A stretch of 60,446 nucleotides of DNA from Silicimonas sp. GTDB lineage: Bacteria > Pseudomonadota > Alphaproteobacteria > Rhodobacterales > Rhodobacteraceae. The translations under genes were made by a program, and so were the position numbers. The notes under the pieces are model-generated. The model worked only from the letters and a program-made list of their open reading frames with translations, did no database searches and was not told the origin of the DNA. The stretch's first letter is position 1. The number at the start of each line of letters is the position of its first letter. Where the stretch lies: assembly GCA_022340315.1 (NCBI GenBank), contig JAJDOD010000169.1, forward strand, positions 1 through 60,446, written 5' to 3'. Positions 29,824 through 55,264 of the stretch are shown here, piece by piece.

Positions 29824-30686
29824 GCATCCTGTTTTTCTGCGTCGGCGCCACCAAGGCGGGCACAAGCTGGCTCCACCGCCAGCTTTCGAGCCATGCTGAA
29901 TGTCATTTCCGCGCCATCAAGGAGCTGCACTACTTCAACGCCATCGACGGTGGCACACTGGACCGCGAACTACGCAAGCACCGTAATCAGCAACAGGCGA
30001 TGCTCGACCGCTTCGCCCGCTCCGGCGCGGCGCCAAGCGACGAGCAGACCCTCCGAATGCTCGACCGGGGCAATTGGATCGACGTTCTGGATCGCGGCAA
30101 GGAAGATCACGCGGCCTATCTCGGCTACCTGCAGAATGGTGCGGGGAATGCCCGCGTGGTGGGCGAAATGACACCGGCCTACGGGCTGCTCACAGCCGAC
30201 CGACTGGCCGGACTGGCGAGGCTCACACCGGATGTCAGGTTCCTCTACCTGCTCCGCGACCCCGTGGACCGGCTCTGGAGCCACATCCGCATGATCGCCG
30301 GGCGTCGCGATGAAAGCGGCCAGGTCACGGCAGTCCGCTGCGCCCGGCTTCTCGACAGAACGCTCTCGGGCGAGGAAAGTCAGATCGTGGCGCGCTCCGA
30401 CTACGCCGGCGCGCTCGACCGGCTTGCGGCGGCAATCCGGCCCGCCAGGCTCCTGATCGAAGTGTTCGAGGAAACCGTGATCGGACCGGGCCTGGACCGC
30501 ATCTGCGATTTTCTCGGGATCGCGCGCATCGCCGCCGATCCCGCCCGCATTCACGAAGGACAGCCGCTTGCCATGACCGATGGCCAGCGCAGGGCCGCAG
30601 CCGACTGGCTGGCGCCGCAATATGTCGCCGCGGAAGCGGCGCTGGGACGTTTGCCTGCAAGCTGGGCCAGAGGAGGTTACAGATGA
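29820..30686 (+). CDS. Sulfotransferase-family protein inside nuo operon
   Basis: A 288-residue protein. The N-terminal [19 protein letters not shown] is the P-loop-like 5'-phosphosulfate-binding loop of PAPS-dependent sulfotransferases (Lys 12), and [15 protein letters not shown] at about residue 146 is the 3'-phosphate-binding motif. EMTPAY is another conserved site. The family sulfates carbohydrates, lipids or proteins; the acceptor is unknown. ATGA overlaps with genes on both sides, including nuoD, make it part of the operon. Such a gene is unusual there. Confidence 0.85.
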
Positions 30687-31894
30687 AAGACGGTGCTTTC
30701 GAGGACACCACGACCGGCGAGCAGAAAATCCGGAACTTCAACATCAATTTCGGGCCTCAGCACCCTGCGGCGCACGGCGTGCTGCGCCTCGTGCTGGAGC
30801 TTGACGGCGAGATCGTCGAGCGCTGCGACCCCCATATCGGGCTCCTCCATCGCGGCACCGAGAAGTTGATGGAGAGCCGGACCTATCTCCAGAATCTGCC
30901 CTATTTCGACCGGTTGGATTACGTGGCGCCGATGAACCAGGAACATGCCTGGTGCCTCGCCATCGAGAAGCTGACCGGCGTGGAAGTGCCGCGCCGCGCC
31001 TCGCTGATCCGGGTGCTTTACTGCGAGATCGGTCGCATCCTGAATCATATTCTCAACGTGACCACCCAGGCAATGGATGTCGGCGCGCTCACCCCGCCGC
31101 TCTGGGGCTTCGAGGAACGCGAGAAGCTGATGGTCTTCTACGAGCGTGCCTGCGGAGCACGGCTCCACGCCGCATACTTCCGGCCCGGCGGCGTGCACCA
31201 GGACCTTCCGCCCGCGCTCATCGACGATATCGAGACCTGGGCGAACGAGTTTCCCAAGGTGCTTGATGACATCGACGGGCTTCTGACCGAGAACCGCATC
31301 TTCAAGCAACGCAACGTCGATATCTGCGTGGTCTCCCAGCAGGAGGCTCTCGACTGGGGTTTCTCCGGCGTCATGGTGCGCGGCTCCGGCATGGCCTGGG
31401 ACCTCCGCCGCGCGCAACCCTACGAATGCTACGACGAGTTCGAATTCCAGATCCCTATCGGTCAGAACGGCGACTGCTATGACCGCTATCTCTGCCGCAT
31501 GGCCGAAATGCGCGAGTCGCTCAAGATCATCCACCAATGCGTCGAGAAGCTTCGCGCGACGCCCGGCGACGTTCTGGCGCGCGGCAAGATCACGCCGCCG
31601 TCGCGCGGCGACATGAAGACCTCGATGGAAGCGCTGATCCACCACTTCAAGCTCTATACCGAAGGCTTCCACGTTCCGGCGGGCGAGGTCTATGCCGCCG
31701 TCGAGGCGCCCAAGGGCGAGTTCGGGGTGTACCTTGTTGCAGACGGCACCAACAAGCCCTACCGCGCCAAGCTGCGCGCACCGGGCTATCCGCACCTTCA
31801 GGCGATGGATCACGTCTCGAAGGGCCACATGCTGGCCGATGTGAGTGCGATCATCGGGACGATGGATATCGTGTTCGGGGAAGTGGACCGATGA
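30683..31894 (+). CDS. nuoD: NADH-quinone oxidoreductase subunit D
   Basis: A 403-residue 49-kDa subunit at the quinone-binding site. [17 protein letters not shown] holds the conserved His and the quinone-site residues; [16 protein letters not shown] and [24 protein letters not shown] are standard. It overlaps the sulfotransferase gene by ATGA. Cotranslated order in the operon is C-x-sulfotransferase-D. Confidence 0.97.
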
Positions 31895-31962
31895 CCGACG
31901 ATGCACCGACGCAATACCGACGTAATACCGACGTAATACCGACGTCCGAAAAAGGGCTTTGA
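31891..31962 (+). CDS. Possible 23-residue ORF over a tandem repeat
   Basis: An ATGA overlap with the nuoD stop opens a 23-codon frame ending just before nuoE. It is built largely on an 11-bp triple repeat, so its sequence ([11 protein letters not shown]) is repeat-derived. It could be a leader peptide or a frameshifted remnant, or simply chance. No protein evidence. Confidence 0.22.
31913..31945. repeat. 11-bp direct repeat, three copies
   Basis: The unit AATACCGACGT occurs three times head to tail at 31913-31923, 31924-31934 and 31935-31945, without mismatch. It lies in the 75-bp gap between nuoD and nuoE. Copy number could vary by slippage. One copy is 11 bp, so any change alters the reading frame of the small ORF. 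Confidence 0.85.
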
Positions 31963-31969
31963 CAGGGAC

Positions 31970-33052
31970 ATGCTCCGCAGACTTCACCCCGAACAACCCG
32001 ATAGCTTCGCCTTCACCGATGCGAACCGGAAATGGGCCGAGGCCCAGATCACCAAGTATCCCGAGGGCCGCCAGGCCAGCGCGGTGATCCCGCTGCTCTG
32101 GCGCGCGCAGGAACAGGAAGGCTGGGTCTCCCGCGCAGCGATCGAGCATGTCGCGGCGATGCTGAATATGGCCTATATCCGTGTGCTGGAAGTCGCCACC
32201 TTCTACTTCATGTTCCAGCTTCAACCCACGGGAAGTATTGCAAATATCCAGGTCTGCGGCACGACGTCCTGCATGATCTGCGGGGCCGAGGACCTGATTG
32301 CGGTCTGCAAGGAAAAGATCGCCGCGAAGCCGCATACACTCTCTGCTGACGGCAAGTTCACCTGGGAAGAAGTCGAGTGCCTCGGCGCCTGTGCCAACGC
32401 GCCGATGGCGCAGATCGGCAAGGATTACTACGAGGATCTGACAGTCGAGAGCTTCACCGAGATTCTCGAGACCTTATCCGCGGGTAAGGTCCCCGTGCCG
32501 GGGCCTCAGAACGGGCGCTATGCGGCGGAACCGAAAAGCGGCCTGACCTCGCTGAAGGAATACGAAGCCGGACGCCCGCAGTACAACGCCAGCGCGCAAC
32601 TTGCCGTGGATATCGGCGACACGGTGCAGCGCATCGACGGCACCGAGGTGCCTCTGGTGACGCCGTGGCTGGACGGCTCCGATCAGGCGACGCCTCCAGC
32701 GACACCGCCCGAGCCGGCTCCTGCCGCCATGACCCGCGACGAGGTCGCGGACGAGCAGATTGCGCGCCCGGAGGAAGGCGCCGTGGCACCCGAACCGGCC
32801 TCGGGACAGAAGCCCGAGGGGCTGGCGGAGGCGCGCGGCGGCGCCGCTGACGACCTGAAGAAGATCAAGGGTGTAGGGCCGAAGCTGGAAAAGCTGCTGA
32901 ACAGCATGGGCTTCTACCACTTCGACCAGGTCGCGGCATGGACGGCGGACGAGATCGCCTGGGTGGACGACAACCTCGAAGGCTTCAAGGGGCGTGTGAC
33001 GCGCGACGAATGGGTTGCGCAGGCCAGGAAATTGGCTGACGGCTCGGAATAG
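31970..33052 (+). CDS. nuoE: NuoE with long C-terminal helix-hairpin-helix extension
   Basis: A 360-residue protein. Residues 1-165 are the usual 24-kDa thioredoxin-like subunit with the 2Fe-2S ligands Cys 96, 101, 137 and 141. NuoE is usually about 165-240 residues. After residue 200 there is an acidic, Pro/Ala-rich linker (230-290), then a helix-hairpin-helix module 294-360 with [20 protein letters not shown] and the [11 protein letters not shown] end. The same module is on L21 and on the next protein. The iron-sulfur site is intact. Confidence 0.95.
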
Positions 33053-33117
33053 TTCCCCTTGATTGAGTGCCAGCGGCTGTGCAGAGTTGCTGGCAAGCAC
33101 TTGGGAGGCTTCATCAC

Positions 33118-33933
33118 ATGTCGCAGAAAAACACGCTAAACTCGGTTGCTTTCGTTGCTGTTTTCGCCCTGGCCGTCTTTTTGGTCGCATTGGGCTTGAT
33201 GCTCTTCGTGGGCAAGTTCGCAATCTTCGGCTCGATCTTCATGGCTCTGGTGGTTGCCATCGCAACGGCCATATTCCTCCTGATCGGCTTCGGAGGCCCG
33301 GCCGCGCAAGCACTGCCGGTTGCGCGCCAGGCCGCACCGCCGGCGCCGGAACCGGTTGCCGAACCGGCTCCGGCTGAACCGGCTCACGCCGAACCCGAGA
33401 TGCCCGACACGTCCGAGGCGGACCGCGAAGCCGAGGAAGCGGCGGAACGGGCACGCGCCCAAGCCGCCGCAGCCGAGGCCGAGGCTGCGCGGAGATCCGC
33501 GGAAGAACAGGCTGCCCGCGACAAGGCCGAGGCCGACGCCCGTGCCGCCGCGGAAGCCGAAGCGGCACGCAAGGCCGCCGAGGCCGCCGCCGCCGCGCCT
33601 CAACCGGCGCCCGAACCTGAACCGGCGGCACCGGCCTCTGGTGAAGCTTCGCGCCCGGCGGGTCTCGATGGTCCGCGCGACGGAACAGCGGACGATCTCA
33701 AACAAATCAAGGGCGTCGGCCCCAAGATGGAACAGGTCTGCAATCGCCTTGGCTTCTGGCACTTTGACCAGATCGCCGCATGGACAGACGAGGAAGTGGC
33801 CTGGGTCGACGCCAACCTGGAAGGCTTTCCGGGCCGCGTTTCCCGGGATAACTGGGTCGAACAGGCAAAAATTCTCGCCTCCGGCGGTGAAACCGAGTTC
33901 TCGAAGCGTGTCGAGGATGGCGACGTCTACTGA
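33118..33933 (+). CDS. Two-pass membrane protein with Ala-rich linker and HhH tail
   Basis: A 271-residue protein. TM helices are near residues 9-31 and 35-58. A long Ala/Glu/Arg-rich stretch (about 100-165) looks like a charged single helix or coiled coil. The C-terminal 192-271 is a helix-hairpin-helix module (IKGVGPKMEQVC, FDQIAAWT, NWVEQAKILA), close to the tail of NuoE immediately upstream. GGGAGG precedes ATG 33118. It probably assists or binds complex I or nucleic acid at the membrane, but this is inference. Confidence 0.85.
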   Translation: MSQKNTLNSVAFVAVFALAVFLVALGLMLFVGKFAIFGSIFMALVVAIATAIFLLIGFGGPAAQALPVARQAAPPAPEPVAEPAPAEPAHAEPEMPDTSEADREAEEAAERARAQAAAAEAEAARRSAEEQAARDKAEADARAAAEAEAARKAAEAAAAAPQPAPEPEPAAPASGEASRPAGLDGPRDGTADDLKQIKGVGPKMEQVCNRLGFWHFDQIAAWTDEEVAWVDANLEGFPGRVSRDNWVEQAKILASGGETEFSKRVEDGDVY

Positions 33934-34014
33934 CGTCGCCCCCGCGTCTGATTGGCTGCCCGCGGCGTTGCGTTGCCCTGTGCGACAGTTGCGGCAACGG
34001 GAAATGGGGTGGAG

Positions 34015-34248
34015 ATGAACGAGCGACTTGAACGTGAAAAGCAGTTGGCACGACTGGGGCGCGTGGTCTCGATCGTGATTGCGGCCACCATGATCCTCTG
34101 GATGGGGGCGCAATGGCTAGGCGGGCGGATGGGACTGCCGGACGAGTACGTGTTTCTCTTCGATCTTTTCGCTCTTGCGGGTTTTCTCTGGGCGATATTC
34201 GTGACATTTCAACTCTGGCGAAAACGCCGCGAACTGGAGAAAGACTGA
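34015..34248 (+). CDS. DUF5337 family protein
   Basis: A 77-residue protein with two hydrophobic helices (about 16-36 and 46-66) and charged ends. It matches the DUF5337 proteins found inside nuo clusters of Rhodobacteraceae. Likely in the inner membrane, possibly a complex I accessory or assembly factor. Ribosome site GGGGTGGAG precedes ATG 34015. It is 46 bp before nuoF. Confidence 0.7.
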   Translation: MNERLEREKQLARLGRVVSIVIAATMILWMGAQWLGGRMGLPDEYVFLFDLFALAGFLWAIFVTFQLWRKRRELEKD

Positions 34249-34293
34249 GGCCGCCACGACAGGCGCGGGACCGGTCAGGATGGGAATGCTCTG

Positions 34294-35574
34294 ATGCTTG
34301 ACGACAAGGATCGTATCTTCACGAATCTCTACGGCATGCACGACCGGACGCTCGCCGGCGCGAAAGCGCGCGGGCATTGGGATGGGACCGCCGGTATCAT
34401 CCAGAAGGGCCGCGACTGGATCGTTGACCAGATGAAGGCTTCGGGCTTGCGTGGTCGGGGTGGAGCGGGTTTCCCAACCGGGCTGAAATGGTCCTTCATG
34501 CCCAAGGAAAGTGACGGGCGCCCTTCCTATCTCGTGGTCAACGCCGACGAGTCCGAGCCGGGCACCTGCAAGGACCGCGAGATCATGCGGCACGACCCGC
34601 ACACCCTCGTCGAAGGCTGTCTGATCGCCAGCTTCGCGATGGGGGCCAACACCTGTTACATCTACCTGCGCGGCGAATATATCCGCGAGCGCGAGGCGCT
34701 GCAGCGCGCCATCGACGAATGCTATGAAGCGGGGCTTCTGGGCAAGAACGCCGCCGGTTCGGGCTGGGATTTCGACCTTTTCCTGCATCACGGCGCCGGG
34801 GCCTATATCTGCGGCGAGGAAACCGCGCTTCTGGAAAGCCTCGAAGGCAAGAAGGGGATGCCGCGGATGAAGCCGCCGTTCCCGGCGGGTGCGGGTCTCT
34901 ATGGCTGCCCGACCACGGTGAACAACGTCGAGTCGATCGCGGTCGTGCCGACCATCCTGCGGCGCGGGCCGGACTGGTTCGCCGGTTTCGGGCGGCCGAA
35001 CAACGCGGGAACCAAGCTGTTTGCAATCAGCGGCCACGTGAACAACCCCTGCGTCGTCGAAGAAGCGATGTCGATATCCTTCGAGGAGTTGATCGACAAG
35101 CATTGCGGCGGCATCCGGGGCGGCTGGAAGAACCTCAAGGCGGTCATTCCGGGCGGTTCGTCGGTGCCCTGTCTGCCGGGCAAGATCATGAAGGACGAGG
35201 CGATCATGGATTTCGACTGGCTGCGCGAGCAGCGGTCGGGTCTGGGCACCGCGGCGGTCATCGTGATGGACAACAGCACGGACATCATCAAGGCGATCTG
35301 GCGGCTCTCCAAGTTCTACAAGCACGAGAGCTGCGGCCAGTGCACCCCCTGCCGCGAGGGCACGGGCTGGATGATGCGCGTGATGGACCGGTTGGTGAAG
35401 GGCGAGGCGGAGGTCGAGGAGATCGACATGCTGCTCGACGTTACCAAGCAGGTCGAAGGTCACACGATCTGCGCTCTTGGCGACGCGGCGGCCTGGCCGA
35501 TCCAGGGGTTGATCCGGCATTTCCGGGATGAGATCGAAGACCGGATCAAGGGCCGGGCGATCGCGGCGGAATAG
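34294..35574 (+). CDS. nuoF: NADH-quinone oxidoreductase subunit F
   Basis: A 426-residue 51-kDa subunit that binds NADH and [19 protein letters not shown] is the NADH-binding segment, [20 protein letters not shown] the FMN region, and [15 protein letters not shown] holds the 4Fe-4S ligands. Length is typical. It is followed by a methyltransferase gene after 2 bp. Confidence 0.97.
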
Positions 35575-49367: not shown

Positions 49368-50144
49368 ATGCTTCTTTGCATTGACACGGGTAATACCAAC
49401 ACCGTTTTCGCCGTCTGGGACGGATCGTCGTTCATCGGCACCTGGCGGGCATCGACCGAACATCAGAGGACAGCGGATCAGTATTTCGTCTGGCTGACCA
49501 CCCTGATGCAGGCGACGGGGTTGAAGGATGTCTCGATCGACGATGTCGTGATCTCGTCGACCGTACCGCGCGTTGTGTTCAATCTGCGCGTCCTCTGCGA
49601 CCGGTATTTCAACTGCCGCCCGCTGGTTGTCGGCAAGCCGGAGTGTCGGCTTCCCGTGCCCTATCGGGTGGACGAGGGAGTTAAGCCGGGACCGGACCGT
49701 TTGGCGAACGCGGCTGCGGCTTTCGACCGCTACGGTGGCAATTCGGTGGTCGTGGATTTCGGGACGGCCACGAACTTCGATGTCGTGGCGGAGGACGGTG
49801 CGTATGTCGGCGGCGTGATCTCGCCGGGTGTGAACCTCTCGCTCGAGGCCCTGGCGGCAGGTGCCGCCGCGCTGCCTCATGTCGACATCTCACAGCCCGA
49901 CAAGGTGATCGGCACCAATACAGTCGGCGCGATCCAGTCGGGCGTTTTCTGGGGGTACAGCGGACTGATCGAAGGCCTGGTGGCGCGCATCCAGAAAGAA
50001 TACGGACAAAAGCTGACGGTTATCGCAACCGGTGGCCTGGCGCCACTCTTCGCGCAGGGCGATATCGAGTTCGATCACATCGACGATGACCTCACCATTC
50101 ACGGGTTAACGGTGATCCACGATTTCAACAAGGAAAACAAATGA
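49368..50144 (+). CDS. coaX: Type III pantothenate kinase
   Basis: A 258-residue enzyme phosphorylating pantothenate in CoA synthesis. MLLCIDTGNTNTVFAVWDG is the ASKHA phosphate-binding loop, GPDRLANAAAAF and VVDFGTATNFDVV are further signatures. GAAGGA precedes the ATG, 8 bp after birA. The end overlaps rnj by ATGA. Confidence 0.96.
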   Translation: MLLCIDTGNTNTVFAVWDGSSFIGTWRASTEHQRTADQYFVWLTTLMQATGLKDVSIDDVVISSTVPRVVFNLRVLCDRYFNCRPLVVGKPECRLPVPYRVDEGVKPGPDRLANAAAAFDRYGGNSVVVDFGTATNFDVVAEDGAYVGGVISPGVNLSLEALAAGAAALPHVDISQPDKVIGTNTVGAIQSGVFWGYSGLIEGLVARIQKEYGQKLTVIATGGLAPLFAQGDIEFDHIDDDLTIHGLTVIHDFNKENK

Positions 50145-51805
50145 GTAAGGAGAGGTTGATCTATCTCCCCCTCGGAGGCGCGGGGGAAATAGGGATGAAC
50201 ACCTATGTCTATGGATGGGGTGCTCCGGGCAAGGAGCGGCTTATCCTGGCAGATCTGGGCGTGACTTTTCCGGACATGGACAGCTCGCCCGGCGTCGATC
50301 TGATCGTGGCCGATATCGCCTGGCTAGCGGAACGCGCGGACCGGATCGAGGCCATCTTCATCACGCACGCGCATATGGACCATGTCGGTGCAGTCGGTCT
50401 GTTATGGGATCGTCTCAAGGCCCCAATCCATGCGCGGCCATTCACCGGGCATCATGCGCGCGTCGCGATGGAGGAGAACGGTCATGACCCCGAGACGGTG
50501 CGGATCGTTTCGGCCTGGCCGGAACAGATCGAGGCCGGGCCGTTCAAGGTCGGTTTCGCGCCGATCAGCCATTCGATACCCGAAAGCTCGGCCTTGATCA
50601 TAGACACACCGGCAGGGCGCATCGTGCATTCCGGTGACTTCAAGCTGGATGAGACCCCGCTGGTTGGCGAACCGTTCGAGCAGGACTTCTGGGCCGGTGT
50701 CGGCGGCGGTGGCGTTCATGCGCTGGTCTGCGACAGCACCAATGTCTTCTCACCCTTGCCGGGCCGTTCGGAGGCGACCGTGGGACCGGAGATCGTCAAA
50801 CTGGTTCAGGATGCGCCGGGGATGTTCGTGGCGACGACTTTCGCTTCGAACGTGGCGCGGGTGAAGACGATGGCGGAGGCTGGCATCGCGGCCGGGCGCT
50901 CGGTCTGCCTGCTGGGACGGGCGATGCGGCGGATGATCGAGGCGGCGGTGCTAACCGGCGTGGTCACGGATTTCCCCAAGACGATCTCACCGGAAGAGGC
51001 CGAGGACATTCCACGCCAGAACCTGATGCTGATCGTGACCGGCAGCCAGGGAGAGCGACGGGCGGCGAGCGCTGCGCTGTCTCGCGGCAAGTACCTCGGC
51101 CTGGAACTGACCGAGGGCGATACGTTTTTGTTCTCTTCGAAGACCATTCCGGGCAATGAGCGCGGCGTCATCCGGATCATGAACGCCTTGTCCGAGAAAG
51201 GCGTCGACGTAGTCGACGACAGCAGCACGCTCTACCACGTTTCAGGTCATGCGAACCGCCCGGACCTTGAGCGGATGCACGCCCTGCTGAAACCCAAGAT
51301 GGTCGTTCCGATGCACGGCGAGCATCGGCACCTGCGCGAGCATTGCAAGCTGGCGGCGTCGAACGGGATGGCGTCAGTGCTGGCCGTGAATGGCTCGATG
51401 GTCGATCTGACGGGGGATGCGCCTGATATCGTTGAATATATCGAGGCGGGGCGAACCTATCTGGACGGTAACGTGATGATCGGTGCGCTTGATGGCGTCA
51501 TCCGCAACCGTTTGCGGATGGCGATGAACGGGCACGCGATCGTATCGCTGATCATGGAAGACGATGAGATGCTGGGCGAGCCCTGGGTCGATCTGATGGG
51601 GCTGCCGGAGCAGGGAAGCTCGAAGGCGCCGCTGGTGGATGTTCTCGAGGAAGACCTCAGCCAGCTGGTCGGCCGAGCCGGGCGAAAACTTCGCGGTGAC
51701 GACGACGATCTCGAGGAGGAGATCCGCAAGGCCGTCCGGCGGACGGCTCAGGACGAGATCGGCAAGAAGCCCGAAGTGACTGTGGTGATCAGCCGGCTTT
51801 CATAG
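50141..51805 (+). CDS. rnj: Ribonuclease J
   Basis: A 554-residue metallo-beta-lactamase/beta-CASP nuclease. FITHAHMDHVGAVG is the HxHxDH zinc site; HSIPESSALIIDTPAGRIVHSGDFK and the beta-CASP VTGSQGERRA, YHVSGHANRPDLERMHALLKPKMVVPMHGEHRHL blocks follow. It matures rRNA and degrades mRNA. ATG 50141 overlaps coaX. Order birA-coaX-rnj implies a shared transcript. Confidence 0.96.
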   Translation: MSKERLIYLPLGGAGEIGMNTYVYGWGAPGKERLILADLGVTFPDMDSSPGVDLIVADIAWLAERADRIEAIFITHAHMDHVGAVGLLWDRLKAPIHARPFTGHHARVAMEENGHDPETVRIVSAWPEQIEAGPFKVGFAPISHSIPESSALIIDTPAGRIVHSGDFKLDETPLVGEPFEQDFWAGVGGGGVHALVCDSTNVFSPLPGRSEATVGPEIVKLVQDAPGMFVATTFASNVARVKTMAEAGIAAGRSVCLLGRAMRRMIEAAVLTGVVTDFPKTISPEEAEDIPRQNLMLIVTGSQGERRAASAALSRGKYLGLELTEGDTFLFSSKTIPGNERGVIRIMNALSEKGVDVVDDSSTLYHVSGHANRPDLERMHALLKPKMVVPMHGEHRHLREHCKLAASNGMASVLAVNGSMVDLTGDAPDIVEYIEAGRTYLDGNVMIGALDGVIRNRLRMAMNGHAIVSLIMEDDEMLGEPWVDLMGLPEQGSSKAPLVDVLEEDLSQLVGRAGRKLRGDDDDLEEEIRKAVRRTAQDEIGKKPEVTVVISRLS

Positions 51806-51839: not shown

Positions 51840-53228
51840 TCAGCCCGCTTTCCGCTCGTCGAAACTCATGGCGATGAAGCTTGGCATGTGATCGCCCATG
51901 CCAACCGTCTTGTTTCCGCCGCCGTCGCGGCCGCCCGACCGCGAGTTGCGATTCTGCTGGCTCTGGGAAGCCTCGGCTTTCGGCGCCGGTGCTGGCGTAT
52001 CTTCGGACTTGGTTTCCTTGGGCTTGCCCCGTCCACGTTTCGGTTGTTCCGCGGGGCCGTCCTCGGTTGCAGCGGTGTTGCCGAGCGGATTCTCGGCGCG
52101 TGGAATCGGCTTGTCGATCAGCTTCTCGATAGCCGAGAGGTTCTTGTCGTCGATGGGCGCCGAGATCATTACCGCCTTGCCATCGCGGCCAGCGCGGCCG
52201 GTGCGGCCGATGCGGTGCACGTAGTCCTCGGAATGCGAGGGTACGTCGTAGTTGAAGACGTGGCTGACGCTGGGAATATCCAGGCCGCGCGCGGCGACAT
52301 CGGATGCGACCAGGAACCGAAGCGAGCGGTCGCGGAAGGCGTCGAGCGTCCGGGTGCGCTGTGACTGGTCGAGATCGCCGTGGATGGCGGCCGCGTCATA
52401 ACCGTGCTTTTTCAGTGACTTGGTAAGGATGTCCACATCGACCTTGCGGTTGCAGAAGACGATCGCGTTGGTGCATGCCTCGCCCTCGCGCTCGATCAGC
52501 GCGCGAAGAAGATCGCGCTTTTCCTTCGCGGCCCGGTCGCGTCGCGACGGTTTCATCAGCACGACTTCCTGGGCGATTGTCTCGGACGCCGTGGCCTGGC
52601 GCGCGACTTCGATGCGCTCGGGGTTCGACAGGAAGGTGTTGGTGATCCGCTCGATCTCGGGCGCCATCGTCGCGCTGAAGAAGAGCGTCTGGCGGGTGAA
52701 CGGCGTGAGCGAGAAGATGCGCTCGATATCCGGAATAAAGCCCATGTCGAGCATACGGTCGGCTTCGTCCACCACCATGATCTGAACGCCGGTCAATAGC
52801 AGTTTGCCACGCTCGAAATGGTCGAGCAGGCGTCCCGGCGTGGCGATCAGAACGTCAACGCCGCGGTCGATGAGTTGGTCCTGTTCCTTGAAGCTGACAC
52901 CGCCAATCAGGAGCGCCTTGGTGAGCTTCACATTCTGGGCGTAGGTGTCGAAGTTCTCGGCCACCTGTGCCGCAAGCTCGCGGGTCGGGCAGAGTACGAG
53001 GCTGCGCGGCATTCTCGCACGTGCGCGCCCGCGCGCCAGCAAGGTGATCATCGGCAGGGTGAAACTGGCGGTCTTGCCGGTACCGGTTTGGGCGATGCCG
53101 AGCACGTCGCGCCCTTCGAGCGCGGGGGGAATCGCACCTGCCTGGATCGGGGTTGGGGTTTCGTAGCCAGCCGCCTCAACGGCCTTGAGTACTTTTGGCG
53201 ACAGCGCCAGGTCAGAAAACTTTGTCAT
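51840..53228 (-). CDS. DEAD-box RNA helicase (RhlE-like)
   Basis: A 462-residue helicase. Q motif region FSDLALSPKVLKAV...PTPIQAGAIP, motif I AQTGTGKT, II DEAD, III SAT, VI HRIGRTGRAG are all present. The C-terminal tail is low-complexity Gly/Arg/Asn/Ser with Pro, as in RhlE homologues. ATG 53228 is preferred for the MTKFSDLALS start. It converges on rnj with a 34-bp gap. Its leader is a 425-bp noncoding region with unusual structure. Confidence 0.94.
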   Translation of the reverse strand: MTKFSDLALSPKVLKAVEAAGYETPTPIQAGAIPPALEGRDVLGIAQTGTGKTASFTLPMITLLARGRARARMPRSLVLCPTRELAAQVAENFDTYAQNVKLTKALLIGGVSFKEQDQLIDRGVDVLIATPGRLLDHFERGKLLLTGVQIMVVDEADRMLDMGFIPDIERIFSLTPFTRQTLFFSATMAPEIERITNTFLSNPERIEVARQATASETIAQEVVLMKPSRRDRAAKEKRDLLRALIEREGEACTNAIVFCNRKVDVDILTKSLKKHGYDAAAIHGDLDQSQRTRTLDAFRDRSLRFLVASDVAARGLDIPSVSHVFNYDVPSHSEDYVHRIGRTGRAGRDGKAVMISAPIDDKNLSAIEKLIDKPIPRAENPLGNTAATEDGPAEQPKRGRGKPKETKSEDTPAPAPKAEASQSQQNRNSRSGGRDGGGNKTVGMGDHMPSFIAMSFDERKAG

Positions 53229-53297
53229 ATCGGTCCAATACTTACGGACCAATCCGTGGCCCGTCGTCTGATGCGGCGGGTCCGGATGACCACAGGC

Positions 53298-53306
53298 TTA
53301 TCCACA
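53298..53306 (+). promoter_or_regulatory. DnaA-box match
   Basis: TTATCCACA matches the E. coli DnaA-box consensus exactly. A near match, CTATCCACA, is at 53586-53594, about 280 bp away on the same strand. Two sites alone do not make an origin. Confidence 0.4.
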
Positions 53307-53371
53307 AGCTGCCGCGTTGGGCATCACCTAGATGAATGTGGCAGACTCGTCAATGTGTCGTTAAAAACCGT

Positions 53372-53456
53372 CAACAATACGTTTCATTTGCGCCTATTGT
53401 TGCCAAAATTTTGGCGTCGTCATTTGCCGGAAATGACAGCATTTCCACTGAAATGC
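53372..53456. repeat. Cluster of four inverted repeats
   Basis: CAACAATA (53372-53379) pairs with TATTGTTG (53395-53402). GCCAAAATTTTGGC (53402-53415) is a perfect 14-bp palindrome. GTCATTT/AAATGAC (53419-53437) and GCATTTC/GAAATGC (53439-53456) are perfect 7-bp stems. They touch or nearly touch each other, which is far beyond what 85 random bases would give. Confidence 0.75.
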
Positions 53457-53570
53457 CGAGGAACCATGTCAGATATCCGGAATTCGGTGCTCCGACGGTT
53501 ACTTCGGCGTCGCGGCGGGCGCGTGCCTTGGGAACGGGGCAGCGAATGTGTTTACGGCCTCGTTGGTGCG

Positions 53571-53586
53571 TTAACCATTTGTTAAC
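53571..53586. promoter_or_regulatory. CtrA-type binding site
   Basis: TTAACCATTTGTTAAC is a perfect match to the alphaproteobacterial CtrA consensus TTAA-N7-TTAAC. The nearest gene reading away from it is the helicase, about 340 bp off on the minus strand. ChpT, which feeds CtrA phosphorylation, is encoded earlier in the window. Confidence 0.45.
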
Positions 53587-53653
53587 TATCCACAACCGAG
53601 GAAATCCGCTTTTCGACTACTGCAGCCGCGCCCGGCGCGATGAATCCGGTGCG

Positions 53654-55264
53654 TCAGTTGACTTGCATTTCCTTCGTAGCCGAGAGCGTCAGGTCGGGGT
53701 GATCCCGCTCGATCCGGTCGATGTCCCATTGCAGGCGGGTGAGGAATACAACGTCGCCGTCATTGTCATGTGCGATATGCTGCTTGTTCGCGGCGATGAA
53801 GGCGTCGAGCTTGTCTTTTGGGCCGGTCACCCACCGGGCGGACGTGAACTGCGAGGGTTCAAAACGTACCGGAAGGCCGTATTCGCCCTCGATTCGCGAG
53901 GCGAGGACCTCGAATTGCAGCTGACCTACCACGCCGACGATGAAGCCCGAGCCGATATTCGGCTTGAACACCTTTGCAGCCCCTTCCTCGGCGAACTGCA
54001 TCAGTGCCTTGTCGAGATGCTTGGCCTTCATCGGGTCGCCTGCACGGCAGGTTTGCAGAAGCTCGGGCGCGAAGCTGGGGATGCCGGTCACGCGAAGCGC
54101 CTCGCCTTCGGTGAGCGTATCGCCGATGCGGAGCTGACCGTGGTTGGGTATGCCGATGATGTCGCCGGCCCAGGCTTCCTCGGCCAGTTCACGATCGGCG
54201 GCGAGGAACAGGACCGGGTTAGAGATCGCCATCGCTTTTTTCGAGCGGACGTGATGCAGCTTCATGCCACGTTCGAAGTGACCGCTGGCGAGGCGCACGA
54301 AGGCCACCCGGTCGCGGTGCTTCGGGTCCATGTTGGCCTGAACCTTGAAGACGAAGCCTGCGACCTTTTCCTCGTATGGGCTGACCTGCCGGGGTTCGGC
54401 GGATTGCGGTTGCGGAACTGGGCCATAGTCGCCGATCCCGTCCATCAGTTCCTTGACGCCGAAAGAATTGATGGCGCTGCCGAACCAGATGGGTGTGAGC
54501 GTGCCGTCCAGAAAGGCATGAGCGTCAAAAGGGGGAAGCAGTTCGCGGGCCATTTCGACCTCTTCGCGGAGCTGCGAGAGGAGACCGGCGGGGATCAATT
54601 CGTCGAGCTTCTGGTCGTTCAGCCCGTCGATCTTGATACTTTCGGCGCGCCTGTTCCGATCGGCACGTTCCATCAATTCGAGCCGGTCGTTCAGCATGTC
54701 GTAGGAGCCGAGGAAGTCGCGGCCCATGCCGATGGGCCAGCTTGCAGGGGTCACGTCGATCGCCAGGTTTTCCTGGATCTCGTCGATGATCTCGAAGGTC
54801 TCGCGGCTTTCGCGGTCCATCTTGTTGCAGAAGGTCAAGATCGGCAGGTCGCGTAGCCGGCAGACCTCGAACAGTTTCCGGGTCTGGCTTTCCACACCCT
54901 TGGCGCCGTCGATAACCATGATGGCTGCATCGACTGCGGTGAGCGTGCGATACGTGTCCTCGGAGAAATCCGAGTGGCCGGGCGTGTCGACGAGGTTGAA
55001 CCGGAAGTCGCGGTAGTCGAAGGACATCGCACTGGCGGAAACCGAAATGCCGCGATCCTTCTCCATCGCCATGAAGTCTGAACGCGTGCGTCGCGCCTCG
55101 CCCTTGGCGCGAACCTGACCGGCCATCTGGATCGCGCCGCCATACAACAGGAACTTCTCGGTCAGCGTGGTCTTGCCCGCATCGGGGTGCGAGATAATTG
55201 CAAAGGTCCGGCGCCGCGCGATCTGGGGCGGCAGGTCAGGTGTATTCGAAGAACGGTCCAACAT
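53654..55264 (-). CDS. prfC: Peptide chain release factor 3
   Basis: A 536-residue translational GTPase that recycles release factors. G1 SHPDAGKTTLTEK, G3 DTPGHSDF and NKMD are visible; the C-terminal domains are typical of RF3. ATG 55264 gives the usual MLDRSS...RRTFAIISHPDAGKT start; a longer frame to 55381 has no support. No strong ribosome site, and CATTATAT lies close upstream, so it could be leaderless. Confidence 0.95.
   Translation of the reverse strand: MLDRSSNTPDLPPQIARRRTFAIISHPDAGKTTLTEKFLLYGGAIQMAGQVRAKGEARRTRSDFMAMEKDRGISVSASAMSFDYRDFRFNLVDTPGHSDFSEDTYRTLTAVDAAIMVIDGAKGVESQTRKLFEVCRLRDLPILTFCNKMDRESRETFEIIDEIQENLAIDVTPASWPIGMGRDFLGSYDMLNDRLELMERADRNRRAESIKIDGLNDQKLDELIPAGLLSQLREEVEMARELLPPFDAHAFLDGTLTPIWFGSAINSFGVKELMDGIGDYGPVPQPQSAEPRQVSPYEEKVAGFVFKVQANMDPKHRDRVAFVRLASGHFERGMKLHHVRSKKAMAISNPVLFLAADRELAEEAWAGDIIGIPNHGQLRIGDTLTEGEALRVTGIPSFAPELLQTCRAGDPMKAKHLDKALMQFAEEGAAKVFKPNIGSGFIVGVVGQLQFEVLASRIEGEYGLPVRFEPSQFTSARWVTGPKDKLDAFIAANKQHIAHDNDGDVVFLTRLQWDIDRIERDHPDLTLSATKEMQVN

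Follow-up and report, generated by a model that had tools for sequence, protein, structure and literature searches.

A probable leader RNA with two predicted, mutually exclusive helices upstream of RhlE-type helicase genes in Rhodobacteraceae

Structured leaders described so far

DEAD-box RNA helicases are required in balance, and the need for them is greater in the cold. To our knowledge, little is understood of how the genes of these helicases sense demand. In attenuator leaders, one of the known forms of regulatory RNA, a shared arm pairs with either an upstream or a downstream partner. The leader analysed here is built in a similar way, since its arm3 has both an upstream and a downstream partner; unlike in attenuators, the downstream partner is the Shine-Dalgarno (SD) sequence, and no intrinsic terminator (a GC-rich hairpin with a T-run) was found between positions 53100 and 53800 of the window (the whole stretch of 60,446 nt from Silicimonas sp. 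that was analysed).

The 5′ UTR of rhlE in Caulobacter crescentus is 186 nt long and predicted to be structured (PMC5472812). According to the available text of that paper, rhlE is induced post-transcriptionally in the cold, and its expression is higher in a null strain; the fusion that rose in this strain carried translation signals of the vector and thus supports feedback on the mRNA level, not a switch at the SD (PMC5472812). The leader described here is likewise a long structured leader of an orthologous kind of gene in an alphaproteobacterium; compared by description, it differs in length (∼90 nt). No alternative pairing or covariation is described for the Caulobacter UTR in the available text (PMC5472812). 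The model of our leader matched nothing outside the family Rhodobacteraceae in 240 genomes of the class.

The cyanobacterial crhR gene also encodes a DEAD-box helicase, whose product controls its own expression with temperature; in the available text, this autoregulation operates via transcript and protein stability, and a leader switch is not mentioned there (PMC3485376). Order-specific structured RNAs found by comparison, as was the leader presented here, include HRC-8-4 and uORFC-8-2 (PMC8632094) and the SAM/SAH riboswitch (PMC2864571), the latter located immediately upstream of its gene, as our leader is. As far as the available text of these papers goes, the three RNAs serve other genes: cco operons, cysS and metK (PMC8632094, PMC2864571).

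A search of Rfam 15 produced no family at the gathering threshold; three sub-threshold matches (E up to 10) were chance matches to eukaryotic or viral families. No description of the leader was found in the available text of the papers searched, PMC8632094 and PMC11109978 among them. Judged by its predicted folds, the leader appears to be new in itself and to fall among the SD-occluding leaders that have an alternative fold, a kind already known.

The helicase gene and its predicted leader

The assembly comprises 3.33 Mb in 210 contigs; the window is one of them (C133). The noncoding gap at 53229–53653, placed correctly by an earlier note on this DNA, separates prfC (peptide chain release factor 3, named by NCBIfam; last base 53654) from a DEAD-box RNA helicase gene (51840–53228, ATG at 53226–53228); both genes are on the minus strand. 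The best NCBIfam matches of the helicase are RhlE2, CshA and RhlE, all with scores under the curated cut-offs, so that ‘RhlE-type’ is used here as a similarity label; the closest sequences come from Rhodobacteraceae genomes. An ORF at 50141–51805, which by its sequence we take to resemble RNase J, is oriented head-on to the helicase gene, with the two stop codons 34 bp apart; the pair would be two RNA-metabolism genes that are convergent neighbours.

Folded as minus-strand RNA, the whole gap does somewhat better than its shuffles (z −2.22; 2 of 100 shuffles equal). When the window was aligned with four other species of the genus, only ∼130 bp before the ATG aligned well, and this part begins at TTGACG (53348–53353, minus strand), a −35-like box; the remainder of the gap, with the palindromes and the CtrA-like site, aligned poorly. 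The TTGAC core is conserved: 147 of 154 leaders have it 75–160 nt before the start codon, compared with 19 of 154 in an equal-length control further upstream. The putative −10 box, TAGGTG (53325–53330, minus strand), assigned from its position 17 nt after the −35 box, is a poor match; at this spacing relatives have TA-nnnn (e.g. TATGCC). A scan with the E. coli-type consensus found no promoter here. Given this result and the poor −10 box, we only infer a helicase promoter at TTGACG/TAGGTG.

The conserved structured leader RNA occupies 53229–53315 (minus strand). Leaders of this family (∼90 nt) have a three-way junction of helices P1–P3 followed by three arms. Helix P1 is formed by a 5′ strand GCGGC (53311–53315) and a 3′ strand GCCGC (53273–53277), both placed by the model alignment and covariation; family-wide, all five of its pairs have double changes. 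Hairpins P2 (GCUU-GUGGAU-AAGC, 53296–53309) and P3 (GGUC-AUCCG-GACC, 53279–53291, with a conserved 5-nt loop) covary as well. Of the arms, arm2 (ACGGGCC, 53258–53264) can pair with 53244–53250 to form P4, and arm3 (AUUGGUCCGU, 53244–53253) can pair with either arm2 (P4) or arm4 (P5); these assignments are backed by pairing and covariation. Arm4 (UGGACCGAU, 53229–53237) carries a Shine-Dalgarno-like GGA at 53234–53236 and, with P5, directly abuts the ATG. The earlier note had suggested a long structured leader of the helicase mRNA, and this idea is supported, the bases involved being 53229–53315 and not the palindromes at 53372–53456; it is the helices of the leader that covary in the family, while the palindromes are not kept. 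For the note's idea of a separate small RNA, the analysis covered a scan for an intrinsic terminator, with none found.

We compared 154 leaders, including two (L046, L101) from outside the family, and sorted them by pattern into 98 of type A, 23 of type B, 19 of type C and 14 others. The type A set of 99 used below consists of these 98 plus L131, L143 and L159, formerly among the others, minus L039 and L040, which failed anchoring. As anchoring uses the arm sequences, a register control on the anchored set is biased; the alignment and the held-out tests are better evidence. A junction with P1 of at least four pairs, P2, and P3 with a 5-nt loop was found in 82 of the 99 leaders (87 of 297 shuffled sequences), and one better than −12 kcal/mol in 73 (31 of 297); the P3 loop reads NNNCG in 66 of the 82 leaders having the junction. 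In the window, the P1 chosen by the junction search differs from that of the covariance model, and the free fold of the leader displays P2 and P5, with P1 and P3 missing. The three-way junction is thus a feature of the family that is less clear in the window's own sequence.

Covariance model R1 was built from 14 leaders with the window left out. The search with R1 covered 150 loci out of 154, namely 99 of type A and 51 others, and neither model was applied to L020 or L039. R1 matched 86 of the 99 type A loci at E ≤ 0.01 and missed 13. The window was matched at 53226–53315, ATG included, with E = 3.4e-7; the E-value for model R2, which was built from the 86 R1-matched leaders and so includes the window, was 1.0e-10. 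Each of the 86 matches has its end precisely at the ATG. The fit of alignment A3, in which the 14 R1 sequences are included, used P1, P2, P3 and P5 and left P4 out. For the four fitted helices, 89.8% of the cells in the alignment of R1 matches pair; there are 280 double-change cells, compared with 79.6 in shuffled alignments and 29–52 in slid ones, and the covariation score is 0.427 versus 0.020–0.083 for slid registers.

Since arm3 is common to P4 and P5, the two helices are mutually exclusive. The Shine-Dalgarno GGA lies in arm4, whose end adjoins the start codon, so that the ribosome-binding site is hidden in P5 alone. A helix pairing the SD is present in 89 of 98 type A leaders, as against 162 of 490 sequences with the SD segment shuffled. 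Thus, two features of an SD-occluding leader, a conserved helix that includes the SD (P5, which covaries) and a conserved alternative pairing that frees it (P4), are found here.

Although P4 played no part in fitting the alignment, 99.8% of its cells are paired (27.6–49.3% when slid). It has 31 double-change cells against a shuffle value of 12.4, and almost all of them fall in a single column pair (G-C 48, A-U 30, G-U 3, other 1). Further pair types are no more numerous than in shuffles, and P4 is largely invariant, with three of six pairs never varying. On a tree of 43 helicases, this A-U/G-C column needs ∼7 changes on each side and nine for both together; shuffled labels need more (mean 17.4), so the changes are clustered yet repeated. 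A standard pair at the same column is kept in 31 of 32 held-out leaders, and in one leader (L143) arm2, arm3 and arm4 are altered together (CAGGC, GCCUG, CAGGC).

Computed energies of the two states are close, with a mean difference between P4 and P5 of −0.23 kcal/mol at 37°C over the 99 leaders. Transcripts cut after arm3 fold into P4 in 69 of 99 cases; complete transcripts fold into P5 in 70 and into P4 in 21. The window leader behaves in the same way, with P4 when cut after arm3 and P5 when complete. Without its 5′ domain, the window sequence prefers P4 (0.73, with 0.27 for P5), so the balance between P4 and P5 depends on context.

We also looked for a conserved short ORF within the leader, as in leader-peptide (uORF) attenuators. 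In 76 of 99 leaders, a start codon is present in the frame that ends in an ATGA overlap; the other frames have one in 59 and 52. The open lengths of the three frames (26.1, 25.3 and 18.4 codons) are unremarkable.

Distribution and possible modes of control

Large genome sets were scanned with stricter Infernal filters. Among 295 genomes of the family, R2 had matches with E ≤ 0.05 in 120, at least two of which (G079, G226) rest on a false match. In 30 R2-matched genomes with no sequence in the model, the best match preceded a helicase gene in every case (30/30), and the leaders of these newly sampled genomes have at most 86% identity to any row of the model. Together with two more genomes (G084, G097), 32 of the 36 R2 matches examined precede a helicase; the other four (in G079 and G226, and second matches in G240 and G478) are weak, with E from 0.0014 to 0.032. 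The weak match in G226 (L303, E = 0.026) lies upstream of an ORF other than a helicase. R1 revealed no regulon in 61 relatives, where it gave 12 matches in 11 genomes, one being a weak second match (G024:C16, E = 0.063). A class-wide sample of 240 genomes, scanned with the strict filters, yielded three matches, all in Rhodobacteraceae. Type A has two named carriers, Ruegeria lacuscaerulensis (L032) and a Pelagimonas MAG (L033).

Named carriers of type B include Pseudorhodobacter and Yoonia. Type B leaders (L042, L043, L045, L018 and others) have a GGGACGC/GCGUCCC hairpin, and for the 3′ arm of this hairpin the SD sequence GGACGC is a second possible partner; type C leaders (L017, L027, L123 and others) have competing GGCCGC/GCGGCC/GCCGC arms. 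Pairing of the SD was found in 22 of 23 type B leaders (47 of 115 shuffled) and, with no excess, in 5 of 19 type C leaders (29 of 95 shuffled). R1 produced one weak match in 51 loci including types B and C, and R2 none in 64 loci including the two from outside the family (L046, L101).

From comparison of sequences, we consider it quite probable that this conserved RNA acts in cis as a leader of the rhlE mRNA, with P4 and P5 as exclusive folds; its likely function, we infer, is translational control of rhlE. During transcription P4 would form first, leaving the ribosome-binding site open, and P5 would form later and shut translation. The balance of P4 and P5 might be set by slow refolding in the cold or by the helicase itself, the two candidates that we favour. 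Feedback in which the helicase refolds the leader and so sets this balance is possible, though on the whole doubtful. We are slightly more doubtful still that the leader is a self-sensing switch, in which RhlE would speed the change from P4 to the SD-hiding P5. If it were such a switch, scarce helicase, or strand exchange slowed by cold, would keep rhlE on, and enough helicase would turn it off, so that the RNA would measure free helicase activity.

Other factors could act on the same pair of helices. The P4/P5 choice might be made by another RNA-binding protein, such as a cold-shock protein, a ribosomal protein or an RNase; within the 5′ domain, P3 and its NNNCG loop are conserved best, and P3 is met again in other leader types, as would suit a binding site, yet a dedicated regulator would be costly for one gene only, and we regard this explanation as unlikely. 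A simple RNA thermometer, whose P5 would melt or rearrange at equilibrium when the temperature changes, would fit with an SD buried in a short helix adjoining the ATG and with the cold induction of RhlE in Caulobacter (PMC5472812, available text). Such a device seems unlikely here, as far as equilibrium folding can tell: in computed folds of the window leader, accessibility of the SD stays at or below 0.001 per base from 4 to 45°C, and cooling from 37 to 10°C has little effect on which of P4 and P5 is the more stable (P5 is the lower in energy in 59 and 66 of 99 leaders, respectively). Metabolite riboswitches are usually built in this way, with a three-way junction and, after it, exclusive helices that end at the SD; P1–P3 would be the aptamer and arms 2–4 the expression platform. 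It is nevertheless improbable that the leader is such a riboswitch, as the sequences of P1 and P2 vary freely and little is invariant beyond the P3 loop and the arms; moreover, essentially one gene, a non-metabolic one, is served, and in types B and C, compared by eye, a P3-like hairpin is retained and the junction is missing.

With its compact size, wide conservation and two folds backed by covariation, the proposed leader makes the question of how helicase genes sense demand testable in marine Rhodobacteraceae, for instance in Ruegeria.

Palindromes and protein-site motifs in the intergenic region

Upstream of the promoter-like boxes and outside the leader lies a cluster of palindromes (53372–53456, no strand assigned). 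The earlier note had counted four inverted repeats in 85 bp; they are present, and our count is five (7-bp arms, loops up to 18), making this the densest 85 bp of the window. Dinucleotide-keeping shuffles contain on average 0.21 inverted repeats per 85 bp and none of 2000 reached five, a figure that is optimistic as the stretch was picked after the fact. We rejected the palindromes as part of the leader, given their place upstream of the promoter-like box and their loss in relatives, and also as a genomic repeat family: with up to two mismatches, the central 14-mer has 18 strand matches at nine places versus 16 for the control.

Independently of the leader, the palindromes could act as a functional operator or fold into hairpins at the prfC mRNA 3′ end. 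Their strong excess over chance and the fold of the minus strand into four hairpins (−24.5 kcal/mol) speak for such a role, which we see as possible though doubtful. None of the four other genus members keeps the cluster, and among the 153 other loci examined it was missing too, save for one locus with four repeats; the repeats are unequally spaced, neither a T-run nor a terminator-like site accompanies them, and the central palindrome GCCAAAATTTTGGC has no second perfect copy in its own genome.

The earlier note had further pointed to a CtrA-type site, a perfect DnaA box and a near match ∼280 bp away, and all three are there. The CtrA-like motif, TTAA-N7-TTAAC, lies at 53570/53571 on both strands, 220 bp upstream of the −35 box, and is the sole occurrence in the window. 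Genome-wide it occurs 21 times versus 18 for the control, which is not above control, and none was found within 1.2 kb upstream of the helicase gene in the four other species of the genus; CtrA control of the promoter thus finds no support. The DnaA box TTATCCACA (53298–53306) is likewise the only copy in the window, with a one-mismatch box 288 bp from it; it is found in four of five species of the genus, and its 11 genome-wide matches are not above the 16 of the reversed pattern. Compared across leaders, this apparent DnaA box is part of hairpin P2, which contains it: the P2 stem is kept with a swapped pair in one leader (L005, ACUUGUGGAUAAGU) and is kept with the box lost in another (L006, GGCUUGUAACUAAGCC). 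A lone perfect DnaA box may, as a warning, be a hairpin loop.

A replication origin or a DnaA/CtrA cell-cycle control site, among the options in the earlier note (which itself took gene direction to argue against a true origin), would account for one perfect TTATCCACA, one near match and a double TTAA-N7-TTAAC within 425 bp, in a region AT-richer than the window. This reading is very improbable. The position of the helicase gene was compared with GC skew, sampled as 20 stretches of 20 kb in each of two complete relatives. In one (G007, 3.56 Mb), the helicase is at 1.05 Mb and ParB at 3.47 Mb; cumulative skew is lowest at ∼3.4–0.4 Mb, with the helicase at least 0.5 Mb off the minimum. In the other (G169, 4.32 Mb), the helicase is at 2.69 Mb and ParB at 4.21 Mb; skew is lowest at the end of the record, ∼1.5 Mb from the helicase. 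ParB is thus near the sampled skew minimum in both, and the helicase gene, contrary to what is expected of an oriC at the minimum and near parAB, is distant from it. In the genome of the window, ParB has its best match on a different contig (C47). There is one perfect box in place of a cluster of DnaA boxes, and this one belongs to a hairpin which L006 retains although the box is lost there; neither motif exceeds its genome-wide control. Elsewhere in the window, at ∼30000–35000, GC skew shifts from about −0.05 to +0.1, a change that may follow gene direction.
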